Assembly (NCBI GenBank): GCA_040954445.1
Contig: CP144361.1
Span: 992,001-1,056,000 of the forward strand
Length of the DNA stretch: 64,000 bases
Direction of reading: 5' to 3'
From: Burkholderia sp.
GTDB lineage: Bacteria; Pseudomonadota; Gammaproteobacteria; Burkholderiales; Burkholderiaceae
Below the pieces are notes generated by a model that made no database searches, was not told where the DNA came from, and worked only from the letters and a program-made list of their open reading frames with translations. Made by a program: the position numbers and the translations under genes. Shown piece by piece: positions 11,815 through 30,676 of this stretch (positions within the stretch are counted from its first letter, which is position 1; the number at the start of each line of letters is the position of its first letter).

Positions 11815-11816
11815 TC

Positions 11817-12643: not shown

Positions 12644-12653
12644 GGAGTAGGCA

Positions 12654-12929
12654 ATGGCACGTTCTGTTAAAAAAGGTCCGTTTTGCGACGCTCATTTGCT
12701 GAAAAAAGTTGAGGTGGCTGCAGCTTCGCGCGACAAGAAGCCGATCAAGACCTGGTCGCGTCGTTCGACGATCCTCCCCGACTTTATCGGTTTGACGATC
12801 GCTGTCCATAACGGTCGTCAACATGTTCCGGTGTACATCTCGGAAAACATGGTCGGCCACAAGCTTGGCGAGTTTGCACTGACTCGTACTTTCAAGGGTC
12901 ACGCGGCCGACAAGAAAGCCAAAAAATAA
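12654..12929 (+). CDS. rpsS: 30S ribosomal protein S19
   Basis: Binds the 30S head with S13 near the A-site tRNA. 91 aa, [20 protein letters not shown] with the conserved [16 protein letters not shown] and [11 protein letters not shown] blocks. AGGAG lies 5 bp upstream of the start. 10 bp after rplB, 12 bp before rplV. Confidence 0.97.
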
Positions 12930-12941
12930 GAGGCAATCAAG

Positions 12942-13271
12942 ATGGAAGTGAAAGCCATTCATCACGGCGCCCGCATCTCAGCGCAAAAGACTCGCCTGGT
13001 GGCTGACCAAATCCGCGGTTTGCCGGTTAACAAGGCGCTGAACGTCCTGATGTTCTCGCCAAAGAAAGCCGCCGGCATCGTTAAGAAGGTGGTGTTGTCG
13101 GCTATCGCGAATGCGGAGCACAACGAAGGTGCAGACATCGGCGAGCTCAAAATCAAGAGCATCTACGTCGACAAGGCTGCCTCGCTTAAGCGTTTTACCG
13201 CCTGTGCGAAGGGACGCGGAAACCGCATTGAGAAGCAGTCCTGTCACATCACTGTGACGGTCGGAAATTAA
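12942..13271 (+). CDS. rplV: 50S ribosomal protein L22
   Basis: Spans the large subunit and lines the exit tunnel with a long beta-hairpin. 109 aa starting [22 protein letters not shown]; the hairpin loop [23 protein letters not shown] lies near residues 83-105. The usual loop has arginines where TACAKGRG appears, and two cysteines stand out here (the SCHI cysteine and the A-C-A). Confidence 0.96.
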
Positions 13272-13281
13272 GGGGGACATG

Positions 13282-14091
13282 ATGGGACAGAAAATTCATC
13301 CGACTGGCTTCCGTCTGGCCGTAAGCCGTAATTGGGCTTCGCGTTGGTACGCAAATAATAACAATTTCGCGGCGATGCTGCAAAAAGATATCGGCGTCCG
13401 TGAGTATCTGAAGAAGAAGTTGAAAAACGCCTCGGTTAGTCGCGTCGTCATCGAACGCCCAGCGAAGAACGCACGGATCACGATTTACAGCTCGCGTCCG
13501 GGCGTCGTCATCGGCAAGAAAGGTGAGGACATCGAACTGCTGAAGACAGAACTGCAACGCCGCATGGGCGTGCCAGTTCATGTGAACATTGAAGAGATTC
13601 GTAAGCCGGAAACCGATGCTCAGCTGATCGCCGATTCGATCACGCAGCAGCTCGAGCGTCGAATTATGTTTCGCCGCGCAATGAAGCGTGCGATGCAGAC
13701 CGCTATGCGTCTGGGTGCACACGGCATCAAAATCATGAGTGCCGGTCGTCTAAACGGCATCGAAATCGCTCGTACCGAGTGGTATCGTGAAGGTCGCGTG
13801 CCCTTACATACGCTGCGCGCTGACATCGATTACGCAACGTCAGAAGCAAAGACGACGTACGGCATCATCGGCGTCAAGGTGTGGGTGTACAAGGGCGACA
13901 CGCTGGGCCGTAATGATGCGCCCGTGCTCCAGGAAGTGACAGAAGACAAGCGCCCTCGTCGCAACGTGCGTCCTGGCGATCGTCGTTCGCGCCGTGACGG
14001 TGGAGGAGGTGGTGGTCCAGGTGCTGCCCGTCCTGGCGCGGTGCGTCGTCGCGTTGCAGGCAAGCCGGAAAGCCGCAAGACTGGAGAATAA
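13282..14091 (+). CDS. rpsC: 30S ribosomal protein S3
   Basis: Forms part of the mRNA entry tunnel with helicase activity. I take the second of two tandem ATGs ([12 protein letters not shown]), the conserved start, giving 269 aa; GGGGGA lies just upstream. The type-2 KH domain has GKKG at residues 78-81 ([13 protein letters not shown]). The C-terminus is a Gly/Arg-rich tail ([18 protein letters not shown]) as in Burkholderia. The stop overlaps the start region of rplP. Confidence 0.97.
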
Positions 14092-14093
14092 TG

Positions 14094-14510
14094 ATGCTGC
14101 AACCGAAACGCAGAAAATATCGTAAGGAACAAAAGGGTCGTAATACCGGTATCGCGACGCGCGGCAACGCAGTGTCGTTCGGTGAATTCGGCCTGCAGGC
14201 TATCGGTCGAAGCCGTGTGACCGCGCGCCAGATTGAAGCGGCGCGGCGGGCCATGACTCGTCACATCAAGCGCGGCGGTCGGATCTGGATCCGTATTTTC
14301 CCAGACAAGCCGATTTCGCAGAAGCCTGCCGAAGTGCGGATGGGTAACGGTAAGGGTAACCCTGAGTACTACGTCGCCGAGATTCAGCCGGGCAAGATGC
14401 TGTACGAAATGGATGGCGTAACCGAAGAACTGGCACGCGAAGCGTTCCGTCTAGCAGCTGCGAAGCTGCCGCTCAAGACGGCATTCATCGTTCGTCAGCT
14501 CGGTGCCTAA
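14094..14510 (+). CDS. rplP: 50S ribosomal protein L16
   Basis: Helps position A-site tRNA on the large subunit. 138 aa from [19 protein letters not shown]; an adjacent upstream ATG at 14091 overlaps the rpsC stop and would add one Met, so coupling is likely. Conserved [25 protein letters not shown] and [15 protein letters not shown] blocks are present. Confidence 0.96.
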
Positions 14511-14522
14511 GGAGGAGAAAAC

Positions 14523-14717
14523 ATGAAGGCTTCCGAACTTCTCCAGAAAGATCTGGCCTTGCTCAACCAGGAGCTGTCGGCGCTGTTGAAGGCACAATTC
14601 AGCCTGCGCATGCAACTCGCGACCCAGCAGCTTACGAACACAAGCCAGCTGAAGAAAGTTCGTCGCGATATTGCTCGTGTGCGGACCATCCTGACTCAGA
14701 AGGCAAATCAAAAATGA
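14523..14717 (+). CDS. rpmC: 50S ribosomal protein L29
   Basis: Two-helix protein by the exit tunnel. 64 aa, [57 protein letters not shown] is recognisable over its full length. GGAGGAG precedes the start, the best Shine-Dalgarno in this cluster. It overlaps rpsQ by 4 bp (ATGA). Confidence 0.95.
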
Positions 14718-14986
14718 ATGATAGCGTGAAAACCTCGCTCAAGCGGACGTTGGTCGGTCGTGTGGTCAGCAACAAGATGGACAAGACCGTTACGGTGTTG
14801 ATTGAGAATCGTGTCAAGCATCCAATTTATGGCAAGTACGTCGTGCGCTCGAAGAAGTACCATGCACACGATGAAGCGAATACCTACAACGAGGGCGACC
14901 TCGTCGAAATCCAAACAACGCCTCCTCTTTCGAAGACTAAGGCCTGGATGGTATTGCGCTTGATCGAAGCAGCCCGCGTCATCTAA
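14714..14986 (+). CDS. rpsQ: 30S ribosomal protein S17
   Basis: Primary 16S-binding OB-fold protein. 90 aa, [31 protein letters not shown] with the conserved [16 protein letters not shown] segment. Last gene before the only native gap in the cluster (14987-15304). Confidence 0.96.
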
Positions 14987-15052
14987 GCGAGACCGTCGAA
15001 AAACCATAAGCAGTGAAAGTGCTTGAAATCGAAAAGTTTTTTCATTTTTTTC

Positions 15053-15080
15053 TTGTATAATAAGAATTATTTGTTATAAT
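15053..15080 (+). promoter_or_regulatory. Internal promoter between rpsQ and rplN
   Basis: TTGTAT (15053-15058) and TATAAT (15075-15080) are 16 bp apart in a strikingly AT-rich block (15030-15105) inside the 318-bp rpsQ-rplN gap. The rest of the gap, about 15110-15300, holds no gene I recognise and ends with a GGGAAAGATA ribosome-binding region. A promoter here would transcribe the spc part independently of rpsJ. Confidence 0.55.
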
Positions 15081-15304
15081 TTCTATTTTTCTTATTTACA
15101 GGTTTCCTGTCGCGGGAGAAGTCACGGTGGGGGTAGCGCAGCCGTGTTCTGTCGGCTCAACGATTCGCCGATTTACGATCGGTGGTGGGTGCGTTTGTCA
15201 TCTATGCTGTGTAAACTGAAGCAATCGCACTTGGCTTGACAGGGCCAAGTGCTGAGCGTATGTGCCATGGTGGTGCATCCGGATTAAGTTGGGAAAGATA
15301 AACC

Positions 15305-15673
15305 ATGATCCAGACCGAATCTCGGCTTGAAGTAGCCGACAACACGGGTGCACGTGAAGTCATGTGCATCAAAGTGCTTGGCGGCTCGAAGCGTCGTTAT
15401 GCTAGCATTGGCGACATCATCAAGGTGACCGTCAAGGAAGCAACGCCGCGCGGGCGTGTGAAGAAAGGCGAAATTTACAATGCCGTGGTCGTGCGCACCG
15501 CCAAGGGCGTGCGTCGTCAGGACGGTTCGCTGATCAAGTTCGACGGCAACGCTGCTGTGCTTTTGAACAACAAGCATGAGCCGATCGGCACCCGTATTTT
15601 CGGGCCGGTCACGCGTGAGCTGCGTAGCGAACGATTCATGAAGATTATTTCGCTGGCACCAGAAGTGCTCTAA
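15305..15673 (+). CDS. rplN: 50S ribosomal protein L14
   Basis: Subunit-interface protein contacting 16S helix 14. 122 aa, [27 protein letters not shown], with the signature block ending [19 protein letters not shown] and [21 protein letters not shown]. First gene after the internal promoter region. Confidence 0.97.
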
Positions 15674-15682
15674 GGAGTTGCG

Positions 15683-15988
15683 ATGAACAGGATTCGCAAG
15701 GGTGACGAAGTCATCGTTGTCACCGGCAAAGACAAGGGCAAGCGCGGCGTCGTGCTGGCGGTCGGTGCCGAGCATGTAACCGTTGAAGGTATCAACCTCG
15801 TCAAAAAACATGTGAAGCCGAACCCGATGAAGGGTACGACGGGTGGTGTGGAAGAGAGGACGATGCCGTTACATATTTCAAACGTTGCACTGGTCGACGT
15901 GAACGGTAAGGCCTCGCGTGTCGGCGTCACGGTCGAGGAAGGCAAGAAGGTTCGCTTCCTGAAGACGACCGGTGCCGTTCTGGCTTGA
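15683..15988 (+). CDS. rplX: 50S ribosomal protein L24
   Basis: Assembly initiator that binds near the exit tunnel. 101 aa with the KOW motif ([18 protein letters not shown], residues 5-22). AAGGAG precedes the start. Confidence 0.96.
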
Positions 15989-16000
15989 TGCGGAGTAGAA

Positions 16001-16540
16001 ATGGCACGTTTTCAAAAGCTTTATAAAGAAGCATTAGTTGGCAGCCTTGTCGAGAAGTTCGGCTATAAGTCGATTATGGAAGTGCCGCGCATTACCAAGA
16101 TCACCCTGAACATGGGCCTTGGCGAAGCGGTCGCTGACAAGAAAATCGTCGAAAACGCCGTTGGCGACCTGACGAAAATCGCAGGGCAGAAGCCTGTCGT
16201 GACGAAAGCACGCAAGGCAATCGCCGGATTCAAGATCCGCCAGGGCTACCCAATCGGTGCAATGGTGACGTTGCGCGGTCGCGCGATGTACGAATTCCTC
16301 GATCGTTTCGTGACGGTCGCCCTCCCCCGCGTGCGTGACTTCCGAGGAGTGTCGAGTCGCGCATTCGATGGTCGTGGCAACTACAACATTGGTGTGAAAG
16401 AGCAAATTATTTTCCCCGAAATTGATTACGACAAGATCGACGTCCTGCGTGGGCTGAACATCAGTATCACAACCACCGCGAAGACTGACGACGAAGCGAA
16501 GGCACTGCTCGCCAGCTTCAAATTTCCGTTCAGAAACTGA
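16001..16540 (+). CDS. rplE: 50S ribosomal protein L5
   Basis: Central-protuberance protein that loads 5S rRNA with L18. 179 aa, [31 protein letters not shown]; conserved LNMGLGEA and [21 protein letters not shown] are present, and it ends FKFPFRN as usual. Confidence 0.97.
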
Positions 16541-16550
16541 GGTTATCACC

Positions 16551-16856
16551 GTGGCTAAACTGGCACTGATCGAACGTGAAAAAAAGCGTGCTCGCCTAGC
16601 AGAGAAGTATGCACCGAAGCGTGCGGCACTGAAGGCGATTGTCGGCGACGAGAGTAAGTCGGACGAAGAGCGCTACGCCGCTCGGCTCGAACTGCAACAA
16701 CTGCCCCGCAACGCCAACCCGACCCGCAAGCGTAACCGCTGCGCGATCACGGGCCGTCCACGTGGCACGTTCCGTAAATTCGGCCTTGCGCGTAACAAGA
16801 TTCGTGAAATCGCTTTCCGCAGCGAGATTCCTGGCCTGACCAAGGCGAGCTGGTAA
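16551..16856 (+). CDS. rpsN: 30S ribosomal protein S14
   Basis: Head protein contacting S3 and S10. 101 aa with a GTG start ([17 protein letters not shown]). It is the zinc-free long form: it lacks the CxxC pairs and has [11 protein letters not shown] and [12 protein letters not shown]. 10 bp after rplE. Confidence 0.96.
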
Positions 16857-16870
16857 TAGGAGAAACGTGA

Positions 16871-17266
16871 ATGAGCATGAGTGATCCTATCGCCGATATG
16901 CTGACTCGCATCCGCAACGCACAGATGGTCGAGAAGGTTTCGGTGGCCATGCCCTCTTCGAAGGTCAAGATCGCGATCGCCCAAGTCCTAAAGGAAGAAG
17001 GCTATATCGACGATTTTGCAGTCAAAACCGAAAGCGCGAAGGCAGAACTGAAGATTGTACTGAAGTACTACGCCGACCGCCCGGTCATCGAACGCCTCGA
17101 GCGCGTGTCGAGGCCCGGCCTGCGCATGTACCGCGGTCGCAATGACATCCCTCAGGTCATGAATGGCCTGGGTGTGACAATCGTCTCGACGCCGAAGGGC
17201 GTGATGACCGATCGCAAGGCGCGTGCTACGGGTGTCGGCGGCGAAGTCATCTGTTACGTCGCTTAA
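16871..17266 (+). CDS. rpsH: 30S ribosomal protein S8
   Basis: Central 16S binder; in enterobacteria also the spc operon repressor. 131 aa starting [18 protein letters not shown], with the C-terminal [26 protein letters not shown]. Its stop codon is inside the 9-bp target site of the IS that follows, so the reading frame survived by the narrowest margin. rplF, normally about 10 bp downstream, is now 1.2 kb away. Confidence 0.97.
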
Positions 17267-17268
17267 CG

Positions 17269-18418
17269 ACATTGTTGCATAAATCTGTTGAGAGTCGGTG
17301 CCGTTTACGCGTAACGGCCGGAGCCGGCCCTTTGTTATCAAGTTAAATTCCAGCTTAACTTTCTAATTTTTAACAGAAAAATGCGCAAAGACATATGCAA
17401 GACATGTGAGCAGAAGGCCACGCTACTGTGTCAGGGACTGAGCGGCCTATAATGTGGGCCTGATCAACGGGGGGAACGTGACGATATGGATAGATGAGGT
17501 CGTTCTTGCCAGAATGCCCGAGACGCCAAGCCCGGTCGTGGTAACCGCCATCTCTCTGGCGATGCCGCTGATTCAGGCATCGCTTGGCGTGAAGACCCTC
17601 TATCGACGGACGCTGCGCGCCCTGAAAAATTTTGCTCGAAGTCTGCGCTATCTGGTCTTCCCAAACTTCCCGATGCCGAACTATACCACGCTCTTTTCCG
17701 GGCAAAAATGCTTGATATTGAGTTGCCGATTCTTCGCGTAGTGAACCGATCCACCTGGTAGATGACAGTACAGGTCTGCAAGTCTCCACCGAAGGTGGAT
17801 GGAAGGGGGGTACCCGCCAGCACGGCTACTCGAAGCGGCGTACGTGGCGTAAAGTCCATATCGCCCTCAACGCGAGAATGTGGGTTAAGCGCATGCAGCG
17901 CTGATGACTTATCAGGATGTGGCTGACGGTGACGTTCTGGCCAAGTTGCTCGACCAGATTTCGCGCGAAGAACAGATCGATATGATCGGCGGTGACAGTG
18001 CCCATAACACCAAGCCATGCCATCTGGTCATTGCTGCACGCAGTGTAGTTCCTACGATTCCGCCACGCCGAGGGCGTGCCTCATGGGCCACGCGGATGAG
18101 CTCGGTGCGGTGTGGCGTAATGGCGCGGTTGATGCAATTGCCCCTGATGGGCAATGAAAATGCAAGAAAGGCAGTGATTACCACTGGCGATCGCAGGCCG
18201 AAAATGCGATGTATCGGTTCAAGACGCTCACCGGTAACTGTCTCTGGGCGCGTCTCACATCGACTCGCAGAGGTGAGCGAGGGCGCGCCGTTTGCGTCGG
18301 CGTAATTAACCGCATGGCGGACCTCGCTTGTCCGCAAGCTGTTCGTATCGCCTGAAATTTTTGATCAATGTGTCTGCCGATGCTATGACGTCCTCACGCT
18401 CGATTTATGCAACAACGC
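17269..18418 (+). mobile_element. IS903-like IS5 element between rpsH and rplF, 9-bp duplication
   Basis: Termini GACATTGTTGCATAAATC and GATTTATGCAACAACGCC. The flanks read TCGCTTAAC (left) and TCGCTTAAT (right), a 9-bp duplication with one later change. The plus-strand transposase (VNGGNVTIWIDEVVLARMP, LYRRTLRALKNFARSLRYL, QHGYSKRRTWRKVHIALN) is broken by many frameshifts. It is transcribed in the operon direction, and at 1,150 bp it is near full length. Confidence 0.9.
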
Positions 18419-18455
18419 CTCGCTTAATCGAAGAGAAAAAACATGGAGAAAAAAC

Positions 18456-18986
18456 ATGTCTCGAATAGGTAAGAGCTCGATCGCGCTACAAGGTACCGAA
18501 GTGACGTTGGCAAATGGCTCCATCACTGTGAAGGGTCCGCTGGGCACGATTTCGCAAGTGGTCAATCCGCTTGTGACGGTGGTCAACCAGGATGGCACAC
18601 TGAATCTGGTGCCGGTCGACGAAAGCCGCGAAGCGAATGCACTGTCGGGTACGATGCGTGCGATCATCGCGAACATAGTGCACGGCGTGACTAATGGTTT
18701 CGAGCGCAAGCTGACGCTGGTTGGCGTCGGTTATCGTGCGCAGGCGCAAGGCGACAAGTTGAACCTGTTGCTGGGTTTCTCGCACCCGGTGATGCACCAG
18801 ATTCCGGCAGGCATCCAGGCTGAAACCCCGACGCAAACCGAAATCGTGATCAAGGGGATCAATAAGCAACAAGTCGGCCAAGTGGCTGCGGAAGTCCGCG
18901 CTTACCGTCCTCCGGAGCCCTATAAGGGCAAAGGAGTGCGCTATTCCGACGAGGTTTTAATCCTCAAAGAAACGAAAAAGAAGTAA
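18456..18986 (+). CDS. rplF: 50S ribosomal protein L6
   Basis: Binds 23S near the sarcin-ricin loop. 176 aa from [13 protein letters not shown] to the C-terminal signature [14 protein letters not shown] and LKETKKK. GGAG lies 8-11 bp upstream of the ATG; a second ATG (18443) in a repeated GAAAAAACATG context is out of frame. It is the first spc gene after the IS and must be expressed by read-through or a new promoter. Confidence 0.96.
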
Positions 18987-18998
18987 GGGTGCAGAATC

Positions 18999-19364
18999 AT
19001 GGATAAGACTCAATCTCGCCTGCGCCGAGCTCGCCAGACGCGTATCAAGATCGCTAAGTTGCAGGTCGCGCGTCTCGCCGTGCACCGCACGAACTCGCAC
19101 ATTTACGCGCAAGTTTTCTCGCCGTGTGGCACTAAAGTGGTGGCCAGCGCATCGACGCTGGAAGCCGAAGTGCGTGCGCAGCTGGCTGATCAGTCTGGCA
19201 AGGGTGGCAACGTCAATGCCGCTATGCTGATCGGTAGGCGTATCGCCGAGAAGGCCAAGGCCTCCGGCATCGCATCTGTAGCCTTCGACCGCTCGGGCTT
19301 CAGCTACCATGGTCGCGTCAAGGCGCTGGCTGATGCAGCTCGCGAAGCTGGGCTCAAGTTTTAA
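18999..19364 (+). CDS. rplR: 50S ribosomal protein L18
   Basis: 5S rRNA binding protein. 121 aa, [18 protein letters not shown] with [14 protein letters not shown] and the C-terminal [26 protein letters not shown] block. 12 bp after rplF. Confidence 0.97.
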
Positions 19365-19378
19365 GGGAAGAATTTGTC

Positions 19379-19897
19379 ATGGTAAAGATGCAAGCGAAAG
19401 TGCAGGCTGACGAGCGTGACGATGGCCTTCGAGAAAAAATGATTTCCGTCAATCGCGTGACCAAGGTCGTGAAAGGTGGCCGAATTCTCGGTTTCGCCGC
19501 GCTGACCGTGGTTGGTGACGGTAATGGCCGCGTCGGTATGGGCAAGGGCAAGGCGAAGGAAGTGCCGGCCGCTGTCCAGAAGGCAATGGAGCAGGCTCGC
19601 CGCAACATGTTCAAGGTACCGCTGCAGAGCGGTACACTGCAACATGAAGTGCATGGCAAGCACGGTGCGTCGACGGTCCTCCTCGCTCCGGCGAGGAGTG
19701 GTACCGGCGTGATCGCCGGCGGCCCAATGCGCGCAGTGTTTGACGTGATGGGGGTGCAGAACGTTGTCGCGAAGAGCCACGGCTCGACGAACTCGTACAA
19801 CCTGGTTCGTGCGACGCTCGACGGCCTGCGCAAGCAATCGACGCCGGCTAACATTGCTGCCAAGCGCGGCAAGTCGGTCGAAGATTTTTTTGACTAA
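19379..19897 (+). CDS. rpsE: 30S ribosomal protein S5
   Basis: Decoding-fidelity protein at the mRNA entry. 172 aa; the double-stranded RNA-binding-like domain ([18 protein letters not shown]) is followed by [14 protein letters not shown] and the C-terminal [18 protein letters not shown]. Confidence 0.97.
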
Positions 19898-19912
19898 GCC
19901 CAGGTTATCATT

Positions 19913-20098
19913 ATGTCTGATAAAACTGTCAAAGTTCAGCTCATTAAGAGCTTGATTGGGGCCCGTGAATCGCACGGTGCCACCGTGCGTGGTTTGGGTC
20001 TACGTCGACTTAACTCGGTCAGCGAGTTGCAGGATACGCCGGCCGTGCGCGGCATGATCAACAAGGTCTCGTACCTTGTTAAGGTCATTGGTAAGTAG
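19913..20098 (+). CDS. rpmD: 50S ribosomal protein L30
   Basis: Small 23S-binding protein. 61 aa, [35 protein letters not shown] matches the family throughout and ends [10 protein letters not shown]. 15 bp after rpsE. Downstream, an IS200-like relic separates it from rplO. Confidence 0.95.
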
Positions 20099-20119
20099 CA
20101 CCGACTGCGGATCAATCTT

Positions 20120-20650
20120 TTCAAATCTAATTCCCTCCGCTTGCGAAGTAAGCGGAGGTGGTGAGTGAATGCATTTACAAGAGCTACACCGTCACGGTAT
20201 CGCTGTATCGCGTGGTACTGCTGGCGCAGTATCGAAGAGCGATCTTTGATGACTGGGTGGACGAGCTGCTGAAAAGGATTTGTCTAGAGATCGTGCATCG
20301 CTACCAAATGAAATTTCTGGAGATTTGGAAGGACAAGGATCACGTGCATTGTTTGGGCTCATCGATCTCGATGCATAGCGTATAGCGAAACGAAGATTAT
20401 GACGCTCTTCAAGAGCATCATAGCTCGGGAAATATTTCGACGGTGTCCTCACGTGAAGAAGAGGCTGTGGGGCGGTGGGTTCTGGACCGACAGATGTCTC
20501 TCGCGCGCACGACAGTCAAGCATGCTGACGAAGAAATGATAGGTCGGTATGTTAAAAATTAGGGCAAGGAATACATCAAGCTTTGCCAAAATTACTAGAT
20601 CACGTTGTTTGAGTGCGATGGTTTAGATGCCCCCTTGGGGGCGCCTTATG
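20120..20650 (+). mobile_element. IS200/IS605-type relic between rpmD and rplO
   Basis: A decayed Y1 transposase runs from about 20158: SYTVTVSLYRVVLLAQYRRAIFDD, then RYQMKFLEIWKDKDHVHCLG with the HxH metal site (HVH), a stop and frameshift near 20380, then KSIIAREIFRRCPHVKKRLWGGGFWTD and MIGRYVKN (catalytic Tyr region). Hairpins typical of IS200 ends are retained: CCTCCGCTT/AAGCGGAGG at 20134-20158 and GCCCCC/GGGGGC at about 20629-20642. The rplO ribosome-binding site follows at once. Confidence 0.85.
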
Positions 20651-20658
20651 GAGTTGAT

Positions 20659-21093
20659 ATGGAGTTAAATAACCTGAAGCCAGCGAAAGGCGCGAAGCAT
20701 GCTAAGCGGCGTGTCGGTCGGGGCATCGGTTCCGGCTTCGGTAAGACGGCCGGTCGTGGTCACAAGGGCCAGAAGTCGCGTTCCGGCGGCTTCCATAAAG
20801 TTGGCTTCGAAGGCGGCCAGATGCCGCTGCAACGTCGTTTGCCGAAGCGCGGCTTCACGTCGTTGACGAAGAAATTTGTCAGTGCAGTGCGTCTGGGCGA
20901 CCTCGAGAAGCTGCCGGTCGACGAAATCGATCTGCTCGCACTGAAGCAAGCTGGTCTGGTCGACGAGCTGACGAAGAGCGCAAAAATTATCGCCACGGGT
21001 GAGCTGCAGCGCAAGATCACTGTGAAGGGTCTCGGCGCGACGAAGTCTGCACGCGCAGCGATCGCAGCGGCCGGTGGTTCGTTCGCTGAGTGA
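20659..21093 (+). CDS. rplO: 50S ribosomal protein L15
   Basis: Late-assembly protein of the large subunit. I start at [22 protein letters not shown] (20659, 144 aa); an upstream in-frame extension to 20605 is IS-derived. The Gly-rich N-terminus ([20 protein letters not shown]) and C-terminal [18 protein letters not shown] are conserved. Its start is only a few bases from the IS200-like right end. Confidence 0.96.
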
Positions 21094-21109
21094 CGCAGCT
21101 TGCGCGCGT

Positions 21110-21760
21110 TACTGAGGTCTGTTTACATTTTTTCGAGTAGCCCACAGGCGCAGGCAACGACACCACTTTGCGGTGTCGTTGCCTGCGAGGTTGTCGTAAC
21201 GAGTAGAGACGTGACAAAAATGTTTGAGGTGATTGAAAGGGCGTTCGACGGTGTTCCGAGTCCGATACAGCCTTTGTTGGCGATTATGGCAATCTATGCG
21301 TAGATATTTGACCAATTCGTGGGCACAGGAATTGTGCCGAGACCTGACCTTCGGTCGCAATTATTTGCAGGATCGTCCAGCTTCATCGACAGCCAGATGA
21401 AGCTTGGTCCGTCAGTCCGCCGCGCGAACGCCCGAGCGCTTATGGGCCGTTTTTTCGAGCGCCGACTGAATGCTGGTGTGCTCGCACGATGATCGAGTCA
21501 ATCAATATACGCATTTGATCTGCGTTTTTTCGTATATCGCGTGCGCCAGGCATTTCCACACGCCTTTGCGACGCGACTGGGAGCAGGGTGGTGCTGCCCT
21601 ATACACTCCGATGTGCCATCGGTCGAATTTCTTTTGCAGATCGCACCACGAGCAACCGGTCCGGCTAATCCAGAGAACGGCTTTGAAAAATCAACCATTA
21701 TCGGGACGCTATTCTCCCCGGATCGCCCTCTTTGCCGGGCAGGGTAGATTTGATTTATGC
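21110..21760 (-). mobile_element. Second IS5-type transposase relic between rplO and secY
   Basis: Minus-strand codons give, in broken frames, a C-terminus RNTVERPFNHLKHFCHVSTRYDNLAGN (about 21290-21200), upstream pieces resembling GRSRGGLT (near 21430) and an N-terminal piece (LPGKEGDPGRI near 21740-21700). These fit IS427/ISL-like members of the IS5 family, different from the dominant IS here. A 15-bp perfect stem (21150-21164 with 21172-21186) lies in its end region. No intact frame. Confidence 0.65.
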
Positions 21761-21878
21761 CCATACCTCATCGCTCAGTTAACGTTCGGATCATCTTGGC
21801 CCGCTCGTGCAAAAGATAAGATGTAAACACATTGCATAGAATGCAAACAGACTCCAGCATCTGCATCGGAGAAGGTAC

Positions 21879-23225
21879 TTGGCTAACAGCCCGAGTCTCA
21901 AAAAACCCGGTAGAAGCACTGCGAAGTTCAGCGATCTGCGTCGGCGAGCGATTTTTTTGCTGCTTGCACTGATCGTCTATCGCATCGGCGCGCACATCCC
22001 AGTTCCGGGCATCGATCCGGATCAACTGGCGCAACTGTTCCAGAGGCAGGCAGGCGGTATTCTCGGCATGTTCAACATGTTCTCGGGTGGTGCATTGTCC
22101 CGCTTCACGGTCTTCGCGCTGGGGATCATGCCGTACATCTCTGCGTCGATTATCATCCAGTTGCTGGCGATCGTCTCGCCGCAGCTTGAGGCGCTGAAGA
22201 AAGAAGGGCAGGCAGGGCTGCGGAAGATCACGCAGTACACGCGTGTCTTTACGGTCGTACTCGCCCTGTTCCAGGCCTTCGGCATCGCTGCGGCGCTGGA
22301 AAATCAGCCTGGTCTTGTGATCGATCCAGGCATACTGTTCCGTCTCACGACGGTCGTCACCCTGGTGACGGGCACGATGTTCCTGATGTGGCTCGGCGAG
22401 CAGATCACCGAACGTGGTCTGGGCAACGGTATTTCAATTATCATCTTCGGCGGGATCGCAGCAGGGTTCCCGAATGCCGTGGGTGGCCTGTTCGAGCTGG
22501 TACGCACGGGTTCGATGAGCATCATGCTGGCGATCATCATCGTCGCTCTGATTGCCGCGGTGACTTACATGGTTGTGTTCATTGAACGCAGTCAGCGTAA
22601 GATTCTCGTGAACTACGCGAAGCGCCAGGTCGGTAACAAGATTTACGGTGGGCAGTCGTCGCACCTGCCGCTGAAGTTGAATATGTCGGGCGTGATTCCT
22701 CCGATTTTCGCATCGTCGATTATCTTGTTCCCGGCAACCATCCTGAGCTGGTTCAGCGCGGGTGAACGTAAGAGTTGGCTGTCTCACACGCTGCACAATG
22801 TGGCGGAAACGCTGAAGCCGGGGCAGCCGGTGTACGTCTTGCTGTACACGCTGGCTATCGTGTTTTTCTGCTTTTTCTACACTGCACTGGTGTTTAACAG
22901 CAGGGAAACAGCGGACAACCTAAAGAAGAGCGGGGCATTTGTTCCGGGGATCCGGCCGGGCGACCAAACCGCGCGATATATCGACCGCATCCTCACGCGT
23001 CTGACGCTGGCCGGTGCGATCTACATCGTCTTCGTGTGTCTGTTGCCGGAATTCCTGGTGCTGCGCTGGAATGTGCCGTTTTATTTTGGTGGAACGTCGC
23101 TGCTGATCATTGTCGTCGTCACGATGGACTTCATGGCGCAGGTGCAGTCGTACGTTATGTCGCAACAGTATGAATCGCTGCTCAAGAAAGCCAATTTCAA
23201 GGGCAGCAACATCCCAATGCGTTGA
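21879..23225 (+). CDS. secY: Preprotein translocase subunit SecY
   Basis: Channel subunit of the SecYEG translocon in the inner membrane. 448 aa with a TTG start ([26 protein letters not shown]) preceded by GGAGAAGG. Ten hydrophobic segments are evident; the plug region [15 protein letters not shown] and the cytoplasmic loop [31 protein letters not shown] are conserved. It normally follows rplO directly; here about 785 bp of IS relic intervenes, so it depends on read-through or a new promoter. Confidence 0.97.
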
Positions 23226-23232
23226 AAGGACT

Positions 23233-23451
23233 ATGGCCAAAGACGATGTAATCCAGATGCAGGGAGAAGTGGTTGAAAACCTTCCGAATGCTACCTTCCG
23301 CGTGAAGCTGGAAAACGGCTATGTCGTGTTGGGGCATATCTCCGGAAAGATGCGGATGCATTACATCCGTATCTTGCCCGGCGACAAGGTGACGGTTGAA
23401 TTGACACCTTACGATCTGTCGCGTGCCCGGATCGTGTTCCGGGCGAAGTGA
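23233..23451 (+). CDS. infA: Translation initiation factor IF-1
   Basis: Binds the 30S A site during initiation. 72 aa, [22 protein letters not shown] to [11 protein letters not shown], an S1-type OB fold. Starts 7 bp after the secY stop; longer in-frame extensions inside secY are not homologous. Confidence 0.96.
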
Positions 23452-23470
23452 TTTGTAAAAGGGGAATATT

Positions 23471-23587
23471 ATGAAAGTGATGGCATCGGTTAAGTGTATT
23501 TGCCGCAATTGCAAGATCATCAAGCGCAAGGGCGTGGTTCGCGTGATCTGCAGCTCAGACCCGCGCCATAAACAGCGTCAAGGCTGA
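23471..23587 (+). CDS. rpmJ: 50S ribosomal protein L36
   Basis: 38-aa zinc-ribbon ribosomal protein, [20 protein letters not shown] to DPRHKQRQG. The zinc ligands (the CRNC pair, a later Cys and the His in DPRH) are present. Residue 9 is Cys (TGT) where relatives usually have Arg (CGT), which puts an extra cysteine beside the zinc site. GGGGAATATT precedes the ATG; it lies between infA and rpsM as expected. Confidence 0.93.
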
Positions 23588-23627
23588 TTGCGCGTGTATT
23601 TGCGCTTTTTGTTTGAGGAAAAAAACA

Positions 23628-23993
23628 ATGGCTCGTATCGCAGGGGTTAACATCCCGAATCATCAGCATACTGAGATCGGCCTGACAGCAATTTTCGGCG
23701 TCGGTCGCGCGCGCGCTCGCAGCATCTGCATTGCAGCAGGCGTCGAATTCTCGAAGAAGGTCAAGGACTTGAACGACGTAGACCTGGAAAAACTGCGTGA
23801 AGAAGTGGGCAAGTTTGTCGTCGAAGGCGATCTACGCCGTGAAGTGACGATGAACATCAAGCGCCTGACGGACCTCGGCTGCTACCGTGGCGTCCGCCAT
23901 CGCAAGGGTCTGCCGATGCGGGGCCAGCGTACGCGTACAAATGCACGTACCCGCAAGGGTCCGCGCCGGGCTGCGCAGGCATTGAAGAAATAA
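23628..23993 (+). CDS. rpsM: 30S ribosomal protein S13
   Basis: 30S head protein touching tRNA and L5. 121 aa from [19 protein letters not shown]; an upstream in-frame start at 23613 is not conserved. The helix-two-turn-helix region ([19 protein letters not shown]) and the basic tail ([24 protein letters not shown]) are typical. Confidence 0.97.
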
Positions 23994-24020
23994 GCTGACA
24001 GACAGTTACAGGAAAACGTC

Positions 24021-24422
24021 ATGGCTAAAACTTCCAATAACGCAGCTCAACGCGTTCGAAAGAAGGTTAAGAAAAACGTTGCAGAAGGGGTGGTTCACGT
24101 TCACGCATCTTTCAACAATACGATCATCACGATCACCGATCGCCAGGGTAATGCTCTGGCTTGGGCGACGTCGGGCGGCCAAGGCTTCAAGGGTTCGCGC
24201 AAGTCGACCCCGTTTGCAGCACAGGTCGCAGCTGAGTCGGCTGGCCGTGTCGCGATGGAACACGGCGTAAGGAACCTCGAAGTTCGCATCAAAGGCCCGG
24301 GCCCGGGTCGTGAGTCGGCAGTACGTGCACTGCACGGCCTTGGTATCAAAATTACAATGATTTCCGATGTGACCCCGATCCCGCACAACGGCTGCCGTCC
24401 GCCGAAGCGACGCCGTATCTAA
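24021..24422 (+). CDS. rpsK: 30S ribosomal protein S11
   Basis: Platform protein near the E site. 133 aa, [23 protein letters not shown] with [18 protein letters not shown] and the C-terminal [18 protein letters not shown]. Followed by a MITE rather than directly by rpsD. Confidence 0.97.
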
Positions 24423-24487
24423 TCTAAAGATGTCAAATCTAGCCTGTTTTCGCCCCAGGAGGGCTTCGGGTAATTTAGTCTATGAAT

Positions 24488-24625
24488 GGCGTTGTTGCAT
24501 AAATTGAGCGAGAGGACGCAATGGCATCGACGGGCATAATTTCAGGCAATACGAACGGATTGCGGACGAGCGAGGTCTGCAATTCGTTCCATTACGTCCT
24601 CACGCTCGATTTATGTAACAACGCC
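24488..24625. repeat. 138-bp MITE between rpsK and rpsD with perfect 9-bp duplication
   Basis: Ends GGCGTTGTTGCATAAATT and GATTTATGTAACAACGCC. TCTATGAAT stands immediately on both sides (24479-24487 and 24626-24634), an exact 9-bp target duplication. Internally it is the IS5-type 3' end joined to a shorter inverted copy through GCAATTCGTTCC, the same junction as the copy at 6550-6688. It has no reading frame, so it was presumably mobilised by a full-length element's transposase. Confidence 0.92.
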
Positions 24626-24718
24626 TCTATGAATTAGACTAAGTCCACCGTACGGTCCAAATGGCACGAACTGCACAGTTTTTACGACCGCGTGATAATA
24701 CGATAGGGGAAACGCAAA

Positions 24719-25342
24719 GTGGCACGTTATACCGGCCCCAAGGCTAAGCTGTCCCGCCGTGAAGGCACCGATCTGTTCCTGAAAAGCGCGCGTCGCGGGC
24801 TCGCCGACAAGTGTAAGCTCGACAGCAAGCCGGGTCAGCATGGCCGCATCTCCGGCGCCCGCACATCCGACTACGGTACGCAGCTGCGTGAAAAGCAAAA
24901 GGTAAAACGTATTTATGGCGTGCTGGAGCGCCAATTCCGCCGCTACTTCGCGGAAGCCGATCGCTGCAAGGGCAACACGGGTGAAAATCTGCTGCAATTG
25001 CTCGAGTCGCGCCTGGACAACGTCGTCTACCGTATGGGTTTCGGTTCGACCCGCGCCGAAGCGCGTCAGCTCGTGGGTCACAAGGCCATCACGGTGAATG
25101 GCATCGTCTCCAACATCCCGTCGCTGCAGGTCAAGGCGGGCAACATCATTGCGATTCGTGAGAAATCGAAAAAGCAGGCGCGTATTGTCGAGGCGCTGTC
25201 GCTGGCTGAGCAAGGTGGTATGCCGAGCTGGGTTGCCGTCGATGCGAAGAAGTTTGAAGGTACCTTCAAGCAAGTGCCGGAGCGCGTCGAAATCGCAGGC
25301 GATATCAACGAAAGCCTGATCGTCGAATTATATTCGCGTTAA
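24719..25342 (+). CDS. rpsD: 30S ribosomal protein S4
   Basis: Primary 16S binder and, in enterobacteria, regulator of the alpha operon. 207 aa with a GTG start ([21 protein letters not shown]) preceded by GGGGAAACGC. The S4 RNA-binding domain ([31 protein letters not shown]) is intact. The MITE upstream lies 93 bp from its start. Confidence 0.97.
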
Positions 25343-25468
25343 TACGATTGATAGCCGAGGTACCCTGCTTGAAAGGGTCGGCAGGGTTTCGGCTCTTATA
25401 TTTTTTCTCAGGTGTTACCGGTCAGCCTTATCGGTGTAACGAGCCGAGGGTATTGGAAAGGAAAACCT

Positions 25469-26446
25469 ATGCAAACCAGTTTGTTGAAACCCAAGATCAT
25501 CACCGTGGAATTGCTGGGAGAAAACTATGCGCAAGTGGTCATGGAGCCCTTCGAAAGGGGCTACGGTCATACTTTGGGTAATGCGCTCCGCCGTGTCTTG
25601 CTGTCGTCGATGATCGGCTATGCACCGACCGAAGTGACGATTGCCGGCGTGGTACATGAGTATTCGACGCTTGATGGTGTGCAAGAGGACGTCGTCAACC
25701 TGCTGCTGAACCTGAAGGGCGTGGTGTTCAAGCTGCACAACCGCGACGAAGTCACGGTGACGCTGCGCAAGGAAGGCGAAGGCATCGTGACGGCTGGCGA
25801 CATCGAACTCGCGCATGACTGTGAGGTGATCAACCCGGATCAAGTGATTGCCCACCTCACGAAGGGCGGAAAGCTCGACATCCAAATCAAGATCGAGAAG
25901 GGCCGCGGTTATGTGCCGGGCAATGTGCGTCGCCACGGCGAGGAAGCGGCCAAGGTCATCGGTCGCATCGTGCTAGACGCATCGTTCTCGCCGGTTCGCC
26001 GCGTTAGCTACGCCGTCGAGAGCGCCCGTGTTGAACAGCGTACCGACCTGGACAAGCTCGTCATGAACATCGAGACGAGCGGCGTGATCACCCCAGAAGA
26101 AGCGATTCGCCAGTCGGCCCGCACCCTGGTCGACCAGTTGTCCGTGTTCGCGGCGCTGGAAGGAACGGAAACGGCTGCCGAAGCCCCGTCGTGCGGACCG
26201 CAGATCGATCCGATCCTGCTGCGTCCGGTCGATGATCTCGAGCTGACAGTTCGTTCAGCGAACTGCCTGAAGGCTGAGAACATCTACTATATCGGCGACC
26301 TGATCCAGCGTACGGAAAACGAGCTGCTGAAGACGCCGAACCTCGGTCGAAAGTCGCTCAACGAAATCAAGGAAGTACTCGCTTCGCGTGGTCTCACGCT
26401 GGGCATGAAGCTCGAGAATTGGCCTCCGGCTAGTCTCGACAAGTAA
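25469..26446 (+). CDS. rpoA: DNA-directed RNA polymerase alpha subunit
   Basis: Dimeric assembly platform of RNA polymerase. 325 aa from [22 protein letters not shown] (an open frame back to 25412 is not homologous). The N-terminal domain carries [22 protein letters not shown]. The C-terminal domain ([29 protein letters not shown], about residues 245-325), which contacts UP elements and activators, is complete. GGAAAGG precedes the start. rplQ, normally next, has been moved 3.6 kb away. Confidence 0.97.
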
Positions 26447-26530
26447 TCGTACGGCAGTATAACTGCGTCTAATCGTGTGGCAGAAACAGCGTCGTCATCT
26501 GGTCGGAGCTCGATTTTTTCCTTTAAAGTC

Positions 26531-28833
26531 TGTGTTGTTGCATAAATCTGTCGAGAGAGCCGGTGATGTTTACGCGCAACATTCGGGACGAGTTCCTCAT
26601 TATCGAGTTAGATTCGAGCGTAAACTCTTGGGTTTTGTCAAAAAGATACGCAGGAACAGACCCAAGACATGTGAGCCGAAGGCACACACTTCCGTCTCAG
26701 GAACTGGGCGGCCTATGTAACGCTGGCCTGAGCAATCGGGGGAACGTGACGATATGCGGATAGATGAGGCCGTCCTTGCTAGAATGCCCTAGGGGGTGGC
26801 TCCATATCTACGCGTGATCGTCCGCGTCTGTGCGGCGATGCGCTGATTTAGGCATTGCTTGGCGTGAAGAATGTCTATCGAATGACCCTGCGCGCTCTGC
26901 AGGGTTTCGCACAAAGTCTGCGTGACCTGGCCTTCCCGAACTTGCCGGTACCAAATTGCACCACGCTCTGTCGTCGGGCAAAACGCTTGGTCCCGAACTT
27001 CCGATCCTTGGCGACAGCAAACTGATCTACCTGGTGGTCGACGGCACCGATCTGAAGGTCTATGGGGCGTTGTTACATAAATCGAGCGTGAGGACGCGAT
27101 GGCATCGACGGGCATAATTTCAGGCGATACGAACGGATTGCGGACGAGCGCGGTCGAACCATGCGGTTGATTATGCCAACGCGAACGGCGAACTCGCTCG
27201 CCTGCGCGTCGATGTGACGCGCCCAGAGAAAGTTGCCGGTGAGGGTCTTGAACCGATACATTGCATGCTCGGCAAGCGATCTCCGGTGGTAGCCACTGTC
27301 TTGCTTCCATTCTCGACGACCGTCACTGGCAATTGCATCAACCGCGCCATTACGCCACGCCGCACCCGGGCATATCCGCTGGCCAATGAGCGGCACCCTC
27401 GCGTAGCGGAATCGAAGGAATAGCACTGCGTGCAGCAATGGCCGCATGGCATGGCTTGGTGTCGTAGGCACCGTCACCGCCGATGACATCGATTTGTTCT
27501 TTTGGTGGAGTCTGGTCGAGCAACTTGGCCAGAGCGTCACCGTCAGCCACATTCTGATGCGGCATGAGCGCGGCATGCACTTGACCCGTATTCGCGTTGA
27601 GCGCGAGATGGACTTTACGCCACGTGCGCCGCTTCGCGTAGCCGTGCTGGCGAACCTCTTCCACTCACCTTCGCCATAGACCTTCAGACCGGTACTGTCG
27701 ACATCCAGATGGATCGGTTCGTTGTCGCGAAGGATCGGCAGTTCGACTTCAAGCGTTTTGCCCGGCGAAAGAGCGTGGTGTAATTCGGCACAGGCAAGCT
27801 CGGGAAGGAGGCCAGATCGCGCAGAATTTGGGTGAAACCTTGCAGGGCGCGCAACCTGAGTCGATAGACGGTCTTCACGCCAAGTAATGCCTGAATCAGG
27901 CGTATCGCCGTATAGACACGGGCACCACGTGTGGGTATGGCGTCGGGCATTCTGGCAAGGACGCCTTCATCTATCCATATCGTCACGTTCCCCCCGGTTG
28001 ATCAGGCCTTCATTATAGGCCGCCCAATTCCTGACACGGTAGCGTGCCTTCTGCTCACCTGTCTTGTGTATGTCCTTGCGCATTTTCTTGGCAAAAATTA
28101 GGCAGTTACTCTGGAATCTGACTTGATAGGGGACTGGCTCCGCGACCGGTGCGCGTAAACGTCAGTGGATCTCGCTCGATTTATGCAACAATGCCGGTCT
28201 ATGGCGAAGGTGCATGGAAGGGTTTCGCCAGGCACGGTTATTCGAAACGGCACACGTGGCGTAAAGTCCATCTCGCGCTCGATTTATGCAACCACGCCGC
28301 TCAAATGCATGCCGCGCTGATAACACATCGGGATGTGGCTGACGATGACGCTCTGGCTAAGTTGCTCGACTAGATTCTGCGCGTCGAACAGATCGATGTT
28401 CTCGGCAGTGCCGGCAGTGCCGGTGCCTACGACACCAAGCCATGTCATGCAGCCATTGTTGCATGCATTTCCGCTCCTTAAATTCCGTCCTGTGAGGCTG
28501 TCGTTCATCAGCCAGAGCGGAGGATACCCTGCTGCGACGTAGCGTAACGGCGTGGTTGATGCAATTTCCCTTGATAGTCCTCGAGAATGGAAGAAAGGAA
28601 GTGGCTACCATCGGCGATCGCTTGCCGAGAATGCGATGTATCGGTAAGACCGCTTACCGGCCCGGCCCCCCTCTCTGGGGGTCTCACATCGCGTTGCAGG
28701 CGAGCGAGTTCGCCGTTCGCGTTGGCATAATCAACCGCATGGCGGACCTCGCTCGTCCGCAATCTGTTCATATTGCCTGAAATTATATTCGTCGATGCCC
28801 ATGCGTTCTCACGTTCGATTGATGCAACAACGC
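26531..28833 (+). mobile_element. IS903-like IS5 element hosting a nested copy, between rpoA and rplQ
   Basis: Left end TGTGTTGTTGCATAAATC, right end GATTGATGCAACAACGC. Flanks TTTAAAGTC and TTTAAAATC form a 9-bp duplication with one change. Its own length without the nested copy is about 1.16 kb. The plus-strand transposase is heavily decayed before and after the nested insertion. A stray 20-bp terminus remnant lies at about 28280-28300. Confidence 0.88.
27066..28195 (-). mobile_element. Nested IS903-like IS5 element with perfect 9-bp duplication
   Basis: Inserted into the transposase of the host copy and inverted relative to it. GGTCTATGG is repeated exactly at 27057-27065 and 28196-28204. 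It is 1,130 bp. Its minus-strand transposase (LALNANTGQVHAAL, IDVIGGDGAYDTKPCH) is in at least three frames. The clean duplication shows it transposed after the host copy was in place. Confidence 0.92.
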
Positions 28834-28854
28834 TTTAAAATCTACGTCTTATCT

Positions 28855-29933
28855 TGGCGGTTTCAAGAGTGCACTGCAAAAGACTGCTGGTTAATGGTTG
28901 GAGCTCGGTCGGTCGGGTTATTGATCCGAAATTTCAAGATCACGAATTTCGGATTAATAGTCAGGACCTGAGCTAGAATTTGCAAAGGGGTGTGCCAGTT
29001 CAGTCCGGCGCGCGGTCGATTGTTGAGTAAGTCGGGAATCGCATCGAGGTCGTCTTGAGAGTAGATGGACAGATCCGTGTCTTTAAGCAAGGACTGGCGC
29101 AGCCGGTCGTTGGCGCGTTCTCACCCGTACCGGGCTCCCAGGGACTGGGCAAGTCGCAAAAGTAGACGCGCACTTTGGTCGCAGTCGTTAGTTCAACATT
29201 TCGCGGCCTTGGTCGTAGGTCAAGGCCTGGCGCAGCGCGCTCGACGAGTGGTTGGAGTTTGTTTGTGAAGGAGGCGCCCGACCAGGGCCGCCGCGGTGGT
29301 CTTCGCGTCCAGTATCTTTCTTGGCCAGCAGAAAGGCGCGGCTCAAGCTGCTCAACAAGGACGGCTACGGACGACTTGTTGCCTGCGCCCTGGATGAGGG
29401 TCACTTTCCCAGTGACCTGGCATGAAGTGGTTGTTGACCACGGGTCGACGCACGTGGATGCTAGACTATGTCTAGAATGGCCCCTCACCGATCGGTGCTG
29501 CGCGAACGTGGCAGACGCTTGTTTCGATGCTGGCGAAGACAGGCGATCAGTGCACGGCGCGGTTCACCGCGAGGCTGAGCGTAGATGGCGTTGTAAATTG
29601 TTTCGTGGGACACGTACAAGCTCAGGTCGTCAGGGACAGTGTGCTTCAGGTTAGCGGAAATTGCCTACGGCGGACTACCGGGGTGTTTGCGCAAGCGTTG
29701 ATAGACGACGCCCCAGAGAATCGAGTCAGGTGCGAGCTGCAGCGGTGGTCGGATAGCTTGTCGACGGGTGTTGCGAGCAGCTTGGGCTACACGCGGACAG
29801 TACAGCCCATTGGTTTGTATGTTGCGTGCCAGCAATCGATTTGCAGACCTTCTGCGGGTTGCAGTTGCTGGTACATTCTCTTTGCCATTCATGCGATTTA
29901 CAGATTGGTGAGGGTATTGCACTTCAGATTTGA
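28855..29933 (-). mobile_element. IS30-family relic upstream of rplQ
   Basis: The right end AGGGTATTGCACTTCAGATT (29911-29930) matches the copy at 2791; the left end is decayed. The minus strand at 29090-28980 encodes SIYSQDDLDAIPDLLNNRPRAGLNWHTPLQILAQVL, the typical IS30 transposase C-terminus (LN.RPR..L...TP...). Other segments are in shifted frames. A 37-bp palindrome (28921-28957) is inserted in it. It ends about 80 bp before the rplQ start. Confidence 0.75.
28921..28957. repeat. Minimal 37-bp IS630-type palindrome with TA flanks
   Basis: TTGATCCGAAATT, an 11-nt spacer (TCAAGATCACG), then AATTTCGGATTAA, with TA on both sides (28919-28920, 28958-28959). It has the terminal blocks of the larger IS630-type palindromes with the centre removed. 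Inserted in the IS30-like relic. Confidence 0.65.
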
Positions 29934-30015
29934 AGCGGCTCTTTTTCTACCGGCCCCTGCACCCCAAGGCGCGATAAAAGAGCTGGAGCAAAACTTTGAA
30001 TCAAGGAAACTGAAA

Positions 30016-30408
30016 ATGCGTCATCGTCATGGTTTGCGGAAACTGAACCGCACGAGCAGCCACCGTCTGGCAATGCTCCGTAACATGTCCAACTCGCTGA
30101 TCGAGCACGAAATGATCAAGACGACGCTTCCGAAGGCGAAAGAACTGCGTAAGCTCGTCGAGCCCCTCATCACCCTGGGCAAGAAGCCGTCGCTATCCAA
30201 CCGACGCCTGGCGTTCAATCGCCTGCGTGATCGTGACTCGGTCACGAAGCTGTTTGATGTGCTCGGTCCGCGCTTCGCGAACCGTCCGGGCGGCTACCTG
30301 CGTATCCTGAAGTTCGGCTTCCGCGTTGGCGACAACGCGCCGATGGCGTTGGTCGAACTGCTCGACCGCCCGGAAGTTTCGGAAGAGAACATCCAGGAAG
30401 CGGAATAA
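30016..30408 (+). CDS. rplQ: 50S ribosomal protein L17
   Basis: Exit-tunnel-side protein of the large subunit. 130 aa, [23 protein letters not shown] to NIQEAE. I reject the longer open frame back to 29527 because it is IS-derived. Normally the last gene of the alpha operon directly after rpoA; here 3.6 kb of nested IS DNA lies between, so it needs its own or an IS-borne promoter. A strong terminator follows 5 bp after the stop. Confidence 0.96.
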
Positions 30409-30413
30409 ACATT

Positions 30414-30463
30414 ATCCGACACACAAAAAGCCAGGCATCAGCCTGGCTTTTTGTGTGTCGGAT
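30414..30463. terminator. Bidirectional terminator after rplQ
   Basis: A perfect inverted repeat of about 23 bp per arm (ATCCGACACAC...AAAAAGCCAGGC, loop ATCA, then GCCTGGCTTTTTG...). The T-run inside the right arm and A-run inside the left arm make it work from either side. It is the native end of the ribosomal super-operon; an IS terminus begins directly after it at 30465. Confidence 0.9.
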
Positions 30464-30464
30464 C

Positions 30465-30676
30465 GGCGTTGTTGCATAAATCGAGCGTGCGGACGCAATA
30501 GCATCGACGGGCATAATTTCAGGCGATACGAACGGATTGCAGACGAGCGAGGTCCGCCCCATACTGTTGATGACGCCGACGCGAACGGCGACCTCGGTCG
30601 TCTGCAATCCGTTCGTATCGCCTGAAATTATGCCCGTCGATGCTATTGCGTCCGCACGCTCGATTTATGCAACAAC
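30465..30676. repeat. 212-bp foldback with 79-bp perfect arms
   Basis: Arms 30468-30546 and 30598-30676 are exact inverted copies of the IS5-type 3' end, around a 51-nt spacer. Both arms share private variants (GTGCGGACG and ATTGCAGAC), so they were copied from each other recently. The full IS termini lie at the outer ends (the right one lacks its last three bases). No coding capacity. It sits between the rplQ terminator and secD. Confidence 0.88.

Follow-up and report, generated by a model that had tools for sequence, protein, structure and literature searches.

Mobile DNA sits at five of the 28 gene junctions of the S10-spc-alpha operon, which is among the most conserved bacterial gene clusters, in the window analysed here (a 64,000-nucleotide stretch of a Burkholderia sp. 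chromosome), and it neither interrupts any of the 29 genes nor disturbs their order. Inside the operon the four insertions that can be tested keep their target duplications and all five junctions keep collinear flanks, whereas the full-length IS copies outside it have no such duplications and lie among blocks whose borders are collinear in one case out of nine. The operon and the two RNA structures that accompany it are located as follows:

9734 to 30408, + strand: S10-spc-alpha operon, 29 genes from rpsJ to rplQ with 28 junctions, the rplB frame broken
23554 to 23660, + strand: S4-binding leader of the alpha operon, Rfam Alpha_RBS at 36.7 bits (gathering score 38)
30416 to 30461, + strand: hairpin after rplQ, kept; the consensus terminator scan lists it on the − strand only

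Gene order from rpsJ to rplQ is the standard, ancestral one, with the start of rplQ set from the sequence at 30016 and its end at 30408. The predicted S4-binding leader is retained at a score just under the gathering score, and the hairpin after rplQ is presumably the operon terminator. Mobile DNA occupies the junctions rpsH/rplF, rpmD/rplO, rplO/secY, rpsK/rpsD and rpoA/rplQ, hereafter J1 to J5. As reference we used the Burkholderia genome G400 (locus L134), the closest in a search of 398 genomes of the family and 65 of the genus, whose secY is 93% identical to that of the window. BLAST of its operon region against the window gives six collinear blocks (9657-17267, 18445-20115, 20650-21113, 21856-24483, 24626-26457 and 29942-30465) that break at J1 to J5 only, without any rearrangement of the flanks, while the remaining 23 gaps differ from G400 by at most 15 bases. 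The five insertion sites named in the original prediction are thereby confirmed, with element families and target duplications as further evidence, and its statement that no gene is interrupted by an element holds as well; rplB nonetheless has a broken frame, being one base short. Its assumption that these gaps normally measure a few to some tens of bp is right for J1, J2 and J3 (16, 23 and 43 bp in G400) and wrong for J4 and J5, where G400 has about 140 bp. In G400 a gene that reads by eye as tuf-like lies directly before rpsJ; it is absent from 9490-9733 of the window, and a distinct foldback element (about 9493-9610) now precedes the rpsJ leader. Inverted-repeat elements at 8936-9054 and 28920-28965 look like this foldback by eye, the latter being short and located within the IS30-like element of J5. 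The inserted elements and their duplications are:

17259 to 17267, + strand: left target duplication of J1, TCGCTTAAC, which includes the rpsH stop codon
17268 to 18419, + strand: J1, IS5-family element between rpsH and rplF, 1152 bp, with transposase remnants on the + strand
18420 to 18428, + strand: right target duplication of J1, TCGCTTAAT
20116 to 20649, + strand: J2, decayed IS200/IS605 element between rpmD and rplO (PF01797)
21114 to 21855, − strand: J3, second IS5-type element between rplO and secY, decayed, with imperfect terminal repeats
24488 to 24625, no strand assigned: J4, 138-bp foldback MITE between rpsK and rpsD, with the perfect 9-bp duplication TCTATGAAT at 24479-24487 and 24626-24634
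26531 to 28833, + strand: outer IS5-family element of J5, in the rpoA/rplQ gap, with duplication TTTAAAGTC/TTTAAAATC
27066 to 28195, − strand: J5 nested IS5-family element, inside the outer element, perfect duplication GGTCTATGG
28856 to 29939, − strand: IS30-like element of J5, with ends placed by eye and weak matches to its profile

IS5-family DNA makes up 34% of the window, which contains matches to three IS5 profiles (NF033579, Pfam PF13737 and PF01609) and an intact IS5 transposase at 34231-35235 (NF033579, E 1e-97) with a relative at 82% identity in E5299_01046; a megablast comparison of the IS5 of the window with plasmids gave no match. Transposase fragments of J1 and of the nested J5 element match NF033579 under its cut-off, and DNA similarity alone places outer J5 and the MITE of J4 in the IS5 family. 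Both ends of J1, J4, outer J5 and nested J5 are present as terminal inverted repeats (GGCGTTGTTGCATAAATC) with 0-2 mismatches, and the two arms of the MITE match one and the same IS end. J2 matches PF01797 (Y1 HUH transposase) at E 8.5e-11 over profile positions 3-58 of 121, in a decayed frame, J3 gives a weak match to NF033580 (E 2.8e-7, 30.3 bits versus a cut-off of 110), and the IS30-like element has two weak matches to NF033563 (E 0.0027 and 0.031), both under the cut-off. Among the families originally proposed, IS5 (at J1 and for the nested J5 element), IS200 and the MITE stand, and the second IS5 type and the IS30-like element are below-cut-off matches. A lone IS5 end was furthermore seen at 28272-28298, within the right half of the outer J5 element.

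The 9-bp duplications match at eight of nine positions for J1 and outer J5 and at all nine for J4 and nested J5, such that every testable IS5-type insertion of the operon keeps its footprint. When 20 left and 29 right IS5 ends from the whole window were combined, only these four among the 580 combinations reached at least eight matches; of 25 left ends five had been discarded (four carried 5 mismatches, the fifth carried 3), and inspection had led us to shift the outer J5 element's right end inward by one base. At J2 no ancestral base was lost or duplicated, as bases 12569 and 12570 of L134 abut the two ends of the element, and the missing target duplication is expected of IS200/IS605; its last base adjoins the Shine-Dalgarno motif GGAG of rplO. 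The short duplication expected of an IS5 type was looked for at the flanks of J3, where none is visible; it may have decayed. At the start site of rplF (18433-18458), a tandem duplication of GAGAAAAAACATG puts GGAG before the true ATG.

Six full-length IS5 copies lie outside the operon, and none of them has a duplication; the best agreement found at end shifts of up to 4 bases is 5 or 6 of 9, the same as at random positions. Duplications are thus kept in 4 of 4 cases inside the operon and in none of the 6 full-length copies outside it (p 0.005 by Fisher's test), and this loss is not due to decay, since the copies outside are younger than the J1 and outer J5 elements. Placed on G400, the DNA outside the operon is a patchwork of blocks, here named from the Pfam domains of their genes: pgsA-like at 2.65 Mb, ompA-like at 0.67, the operon itself at 1.84-1.86, secDF at 2.19, dacB-like at 0.88, a 420-bp block at 3.33, hslVU at 1.42, argS at 1.23, metH at 1.22 and dnaJ-dnaK-grpE at 2.23 Mb. 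These ten blocks meet at nine borders with IS5 DNA at every one, and the sole collinear border is argS/metH, the other eight being rearrangements or large deletions relative to G400. Next to pgsA nothing from the uvrC region of locus L142 aligns in the window, where an IS occupies that place; as an identity test for the beetle symbiont Lv-StB, the absence of uvrC proved compatible and not diagnostic. The tRNA-Cys and tRNA-Gly genes, adjacent in G400, are separated by about 1 kb (1850-2825) without an IS5 match.

IS-bearing borders are therefore collinear with G400 in 5 of 5 cases inside the operon versus 1 of 9 outside (Fisher p 0.003), a contrast that, like that of the duplications, is built on small numbers (4 vs 6; 5 vs 9) and on one reference genome. 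We read it as selection against recombination at the IS copies of the operon, which would fit a single transcription unit. The J1 and outer J5 copies may recombine less regardless of selection because they are only about 80% alike to other copies; for the nested J5 copy the nearest other copy is 94% alike, so low similarity does not excuse its kept footprint.

The original prediction had held that expression of the downstream genes adapted through read-through or through promoters in IS DNA. Promoters of the latter kind find no support, since sigma-70-like sites number 4 against 7.5 expected in a consensus scan (other promoter types lie outside its reach), the sole + strand site is in host DNA at 24672-24699, and no + strand site falls inside the inserts. 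Terminator-like sites are likewise at chance level, with 15 found against 14.8 expected. Read-through transcription of the inserts is favoured, indirectly, because collinearity and leaders are kept. That the operon has instead been cut into separately transcribed segments, with new promoters in or beside the inserts as an adaptive or compensatory rewiring, we regard as unlikely. The long gaps, and above all the 3.4 kb of IS DNA at rpoA/rplQ, would speak for it, and at fucAO of E. coli a promoter is reported to have arisen through an IS5 insertion (PMC11894529); the chance-level promoter count with its sole + strand site in host DNA speaks against it, and independent segments would not predict gene order kept at 5 of 5 junctions.

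Two hairpins bear on how such read-through would proceed. The MITE at J4 has a predicted RNA fold of -77.5 kcal/mol (z -12.2), and 0 of 200 shuffles were equally stable. Hairpins of small mobile repeats and MITEs can be processed by RNase III. The second hairpin belongs to the rpoA/rplQ gap, which in 38 of the 126 loci with both genes fits one pattern of up to 15 pairs followed by a T-run; 33 of these loci are Burkholderia and Paraburkholderia (named or genus-placed) and 5 are members of the family. Among 17 distinct arm pairs, one base pair is seen as C-G, T-A and G-C, while the remainder vary little, and the G400 hairpin (L134 gap about 17460-17605) folds with z -4.9. Its only Rfam match is the sRNA family P17 at 14.5 bits (gathering score 45), and no Rfam leader is found before rplQ in the window; for the L17 leader candidate in the literature, the table gives Actino- and Proteobacteria and the discussion names Alphaproteobacteria (PMC7247131). 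The conserved rpoA/rplQ hairpin looks like an intrinsic terminator or attenuator. In the window its loop holds the outer J5 element, and its arms have drifted apart in sequence since. Splitting this hairpin might, as a speculation, aid read-through into rplQ. Read-through could, on the other hand, fail at the strong MITE hairpin or in the 3.4 kb of IS DNA that precede rplQ, one element of which is antisense.

Intergenic DNA accounts for just 1199 of the 14606 bases (8.2%) of the G400 operon, so that six independent primary insertions (J1, J2, J3, J4, outer J5 and the IS30-like element) would all be intergenic with p about 3e-7 if insertion were uniform; for every six intergenic insertions, about 67 genic ones would be expected. 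The idea that the insertions seen are survivors that spared essential frames gains support from this probability, and target preference may contribute to the lack of genic hits. All six primary insertions also lie downstream of rpsH, though 579 of the 1199 intergenic bases precede its end (p 0.019, for a pattern seen post hoc). We think it improbable that a preference of the elements for intergenic, A+T-rich or hairpin DNA, and not selection, explains the unhit genes. The outer J5 element in its conserved hairpin loop would fit such a preference, as would the J4 and outer J5 targets, in which 2 of 9 bases are G or C against 57.5% GC in the window as a whole, but the J1 target has 4 of 9 and overlaps a stop codon. 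Moreover, polA of Lv-StB is reported to be disrupted by a transposase (PMC7042692), and therefore genes do get hit.

How unusual such inserts are was surveyed in a comparison set of 138 loci (80 loci, to which 8 nearest, 20 genus and 30 small-genome family members were added), with coverage varying by junction. The longest other gaps measure 43 (J1, n=135), 42 (J2, n=138), 257 (J3, n=138), 1077 (J4, n=131) and 216 bases (J5, n=126), against 1189, 560, 785, 296 and 3569 bases in the window, and only one comparison locus (of 126 to 138) has a gap above 380 bp at any of the five. The J4 gap of 296 bp is the fourth longest among the window and 131 loci, behind 1077, 380 and 297 bp; this length is no outlier, therefore the target duplication is the evidence at J4, and MITE-sized inserts in other genomes would not show up in a survey of gap lengths. 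At these five junctions the case is indeed as unusual for this operon as had been proposed, with one similar insert among 126 to 138 loci; rpsQ/rplN, a junction without insert in the window, has gaps of 869-963 bases in four other loci.

The insertions appear to have been carried for long. The J1 element is about 17% diverged from young IS5 copies and the nested J5 element about 5%, and in a tree of IS5 copies the private branches of J1 and outer J5 measure about 0.17 substitutions per site (with a further 0.04 for the right half of outer J5, treated separately), compared with 0.04 for the nested copy and 0.004-0.08 for copies outside the operon. The dS branch lengths of the operon genes, derived by hand from three pairwise values, are about 0.25 for the symbiont and 0.02 for G400. 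If IS decay is neutral, J1 and outer J5 look old, present for a large part of the separate history of the lineage, an age that is rough owing to codon bias in ribosomal genes.

Throughout this time the genes stayed under constraint. Frames are open in all 28 operon genes other than rplB, rplQ covers the whole L17 model, and the proteins of the 26 genes compared in the correct frame are 90.6-99.0% identical to those of G400, a range that excludes rplB (for its frame break), rpmJ and rplQ. Genes behind an insert are nearly as constrained as those before any insert (dN/dS 0.084 and 0.070). Over all genes dN/dS is 0.077 between symbiont and G400, twice the 0.038 between the relatives G384 and G400, so constraint is somewhat relaxed across the operon. 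The rplB gene (11817-12643) is one base shorter than in four aligned relatives, whose copies are intact, and its frame breaks near codon 160; a long-read error and a real change cannot be told apart here, and the base is not in a homopolymer run. Judged from the window, it is very improbable that the operon is a dying copy with a second functional gene set elsewhere, as the rplB break and the doubled dN/dS might suggest, given that dN/dS is only 0.07-0.08, similar before and behind the inserts, and that the other 28 frames are open.

Hardly credible at all is an assembly artefact in which repeat collapse put IS sequence between contiguous genes: the region is repeat-rich and the rplB break is of the long-read-error kind, though outside a homopolymer run, but the four target duplications consist of flanking bases that differ by site, the signature of real transposition, several kinds of element are present, and the assembly that probably supplied the window is closed, built from long reads and checked against its assembly graph (PMC11542224). 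To seek the IS30/rplQ junction in another assembly, a frame spanning it was used as query, and none of the 120 matches listed reaches more than slightly past its L17 part (40-53% of the query).

We consider it likely that the operon records a passive proliferation of insertion sequences in which selection on frames, leaders and contiguity decided what was kept, and that transcription runs on through the inserts. IS5-family elements multiplied in what is very probably a host-restricted symbiont in early genome erosion, and insertions into the operon would have survived only where they spared the frames and the ribosome-binding leader of the next gene; the pattern is there in the sequence, and selection is our explanation of it. 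These are simple insertions that then stayed put: inside the operon neither gene order nor any testable duplication has been disturbed, in contrast to the IS copies outside, whose borders lack collinearity. Transcription would still start at the operon's own promoters upstream and run across the inserts, and because of this rearrangement at its junctions would not be tolerated. The inserts themselves are probably functionless; speculatively, RNA processing or termination may be altered by the MITE's hairpin and by the one split upstream of rplQ.

More tentatively, and with considerable doubt on our side, essential operons in general could act as refuges that fossilise transposition, where selection for unbroken co-transcription forbids recombination at the IS copies, footprints and the order of insertion are kept while being erased elsewhere, and kilobases of IS DNA are read through; J5 may then have relieved its own polarity by splitting the terminator-like hairpin. 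Foreign DNA carried for long at five junctions of an operon whose genes remain constrained represents a natural experiment on which parts of operon architecture are needed, such as spacing, coupling and internal terminators. Intact versus scrambled insertion footprints would furthermore offer a simple test, applicable to any IS-rich genome, for clusters selected to stay together, and an operon in one piece amid shuffled surroundings shows how essential genes outlast an insertion storm.

By inference, and not by a sequence match, we place the window very probably on chromosome 1 of Burkholderia sp. LvStB, a symbiont of Lagria beetles whose genome is eroding. The LvStB_2023 genome is described with a closed chromosome 1 of 1.89 Mbp, a genome GC of 58.63% (57.5% in the window) and 43.87% of its frames called pseudogenes, and comes from a long-read-only assembly with an assembly-graph check (PMC11542224); locus tags beginning with E5299 are those of Burkholderia sp. 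Lv-StB from Lagria villosa (PMC7042692). Like the window, Lv-StB is reported to combine a heavy IS load, pseudogenes, lowered GC and rearrangement with conserved core genes (PMC7042692, PMC11542224), and in the main texts of both papers a word search finds neither 'operon' nor 'ribosomal protein'. Proliferation of IS in recently host-restricted symbionts is also described for Serratia symbiotica, there too with conserved core genes (PMC5013485), and for Sodalis glossinidius (PMC3091646). Literature searches on insertion sequences in ribosomal operons or symbionts returned no paper on such a case, which is no proof of absence. With MITEs and small mobile repeats in bacterial transcripts (PMC2229807, PMC3049150) the J4 element shares its short, non-autonomous nature, a strong hairpin and ends that match those of a local IS; unlike those, it sits in the alpha operon, between rpsK and rpsD. 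The nearest parallel for the operon itself is the Burkholderiaceae genome G284 (3.9 Mb; locus L165), which has an IS-like insert at rpsK/rpsD in a gap of 1077 bp, with open frames at L165:14053-15129 that by eye resemble an IS5-type transposase; unlike the window, it is affected at one junction only, by a different element, and its remaining 27 gaps are of ordinary length. Compared with other IS-rich symbionts, five S10-spc-alpha junctions with kept duplications make an unusually clear case. The process is known and the case is extreme and clean; what is new here, and the part worth following, is the footprint contrast between an operon that kept its duplications and collinearity and surroundings that lost them.
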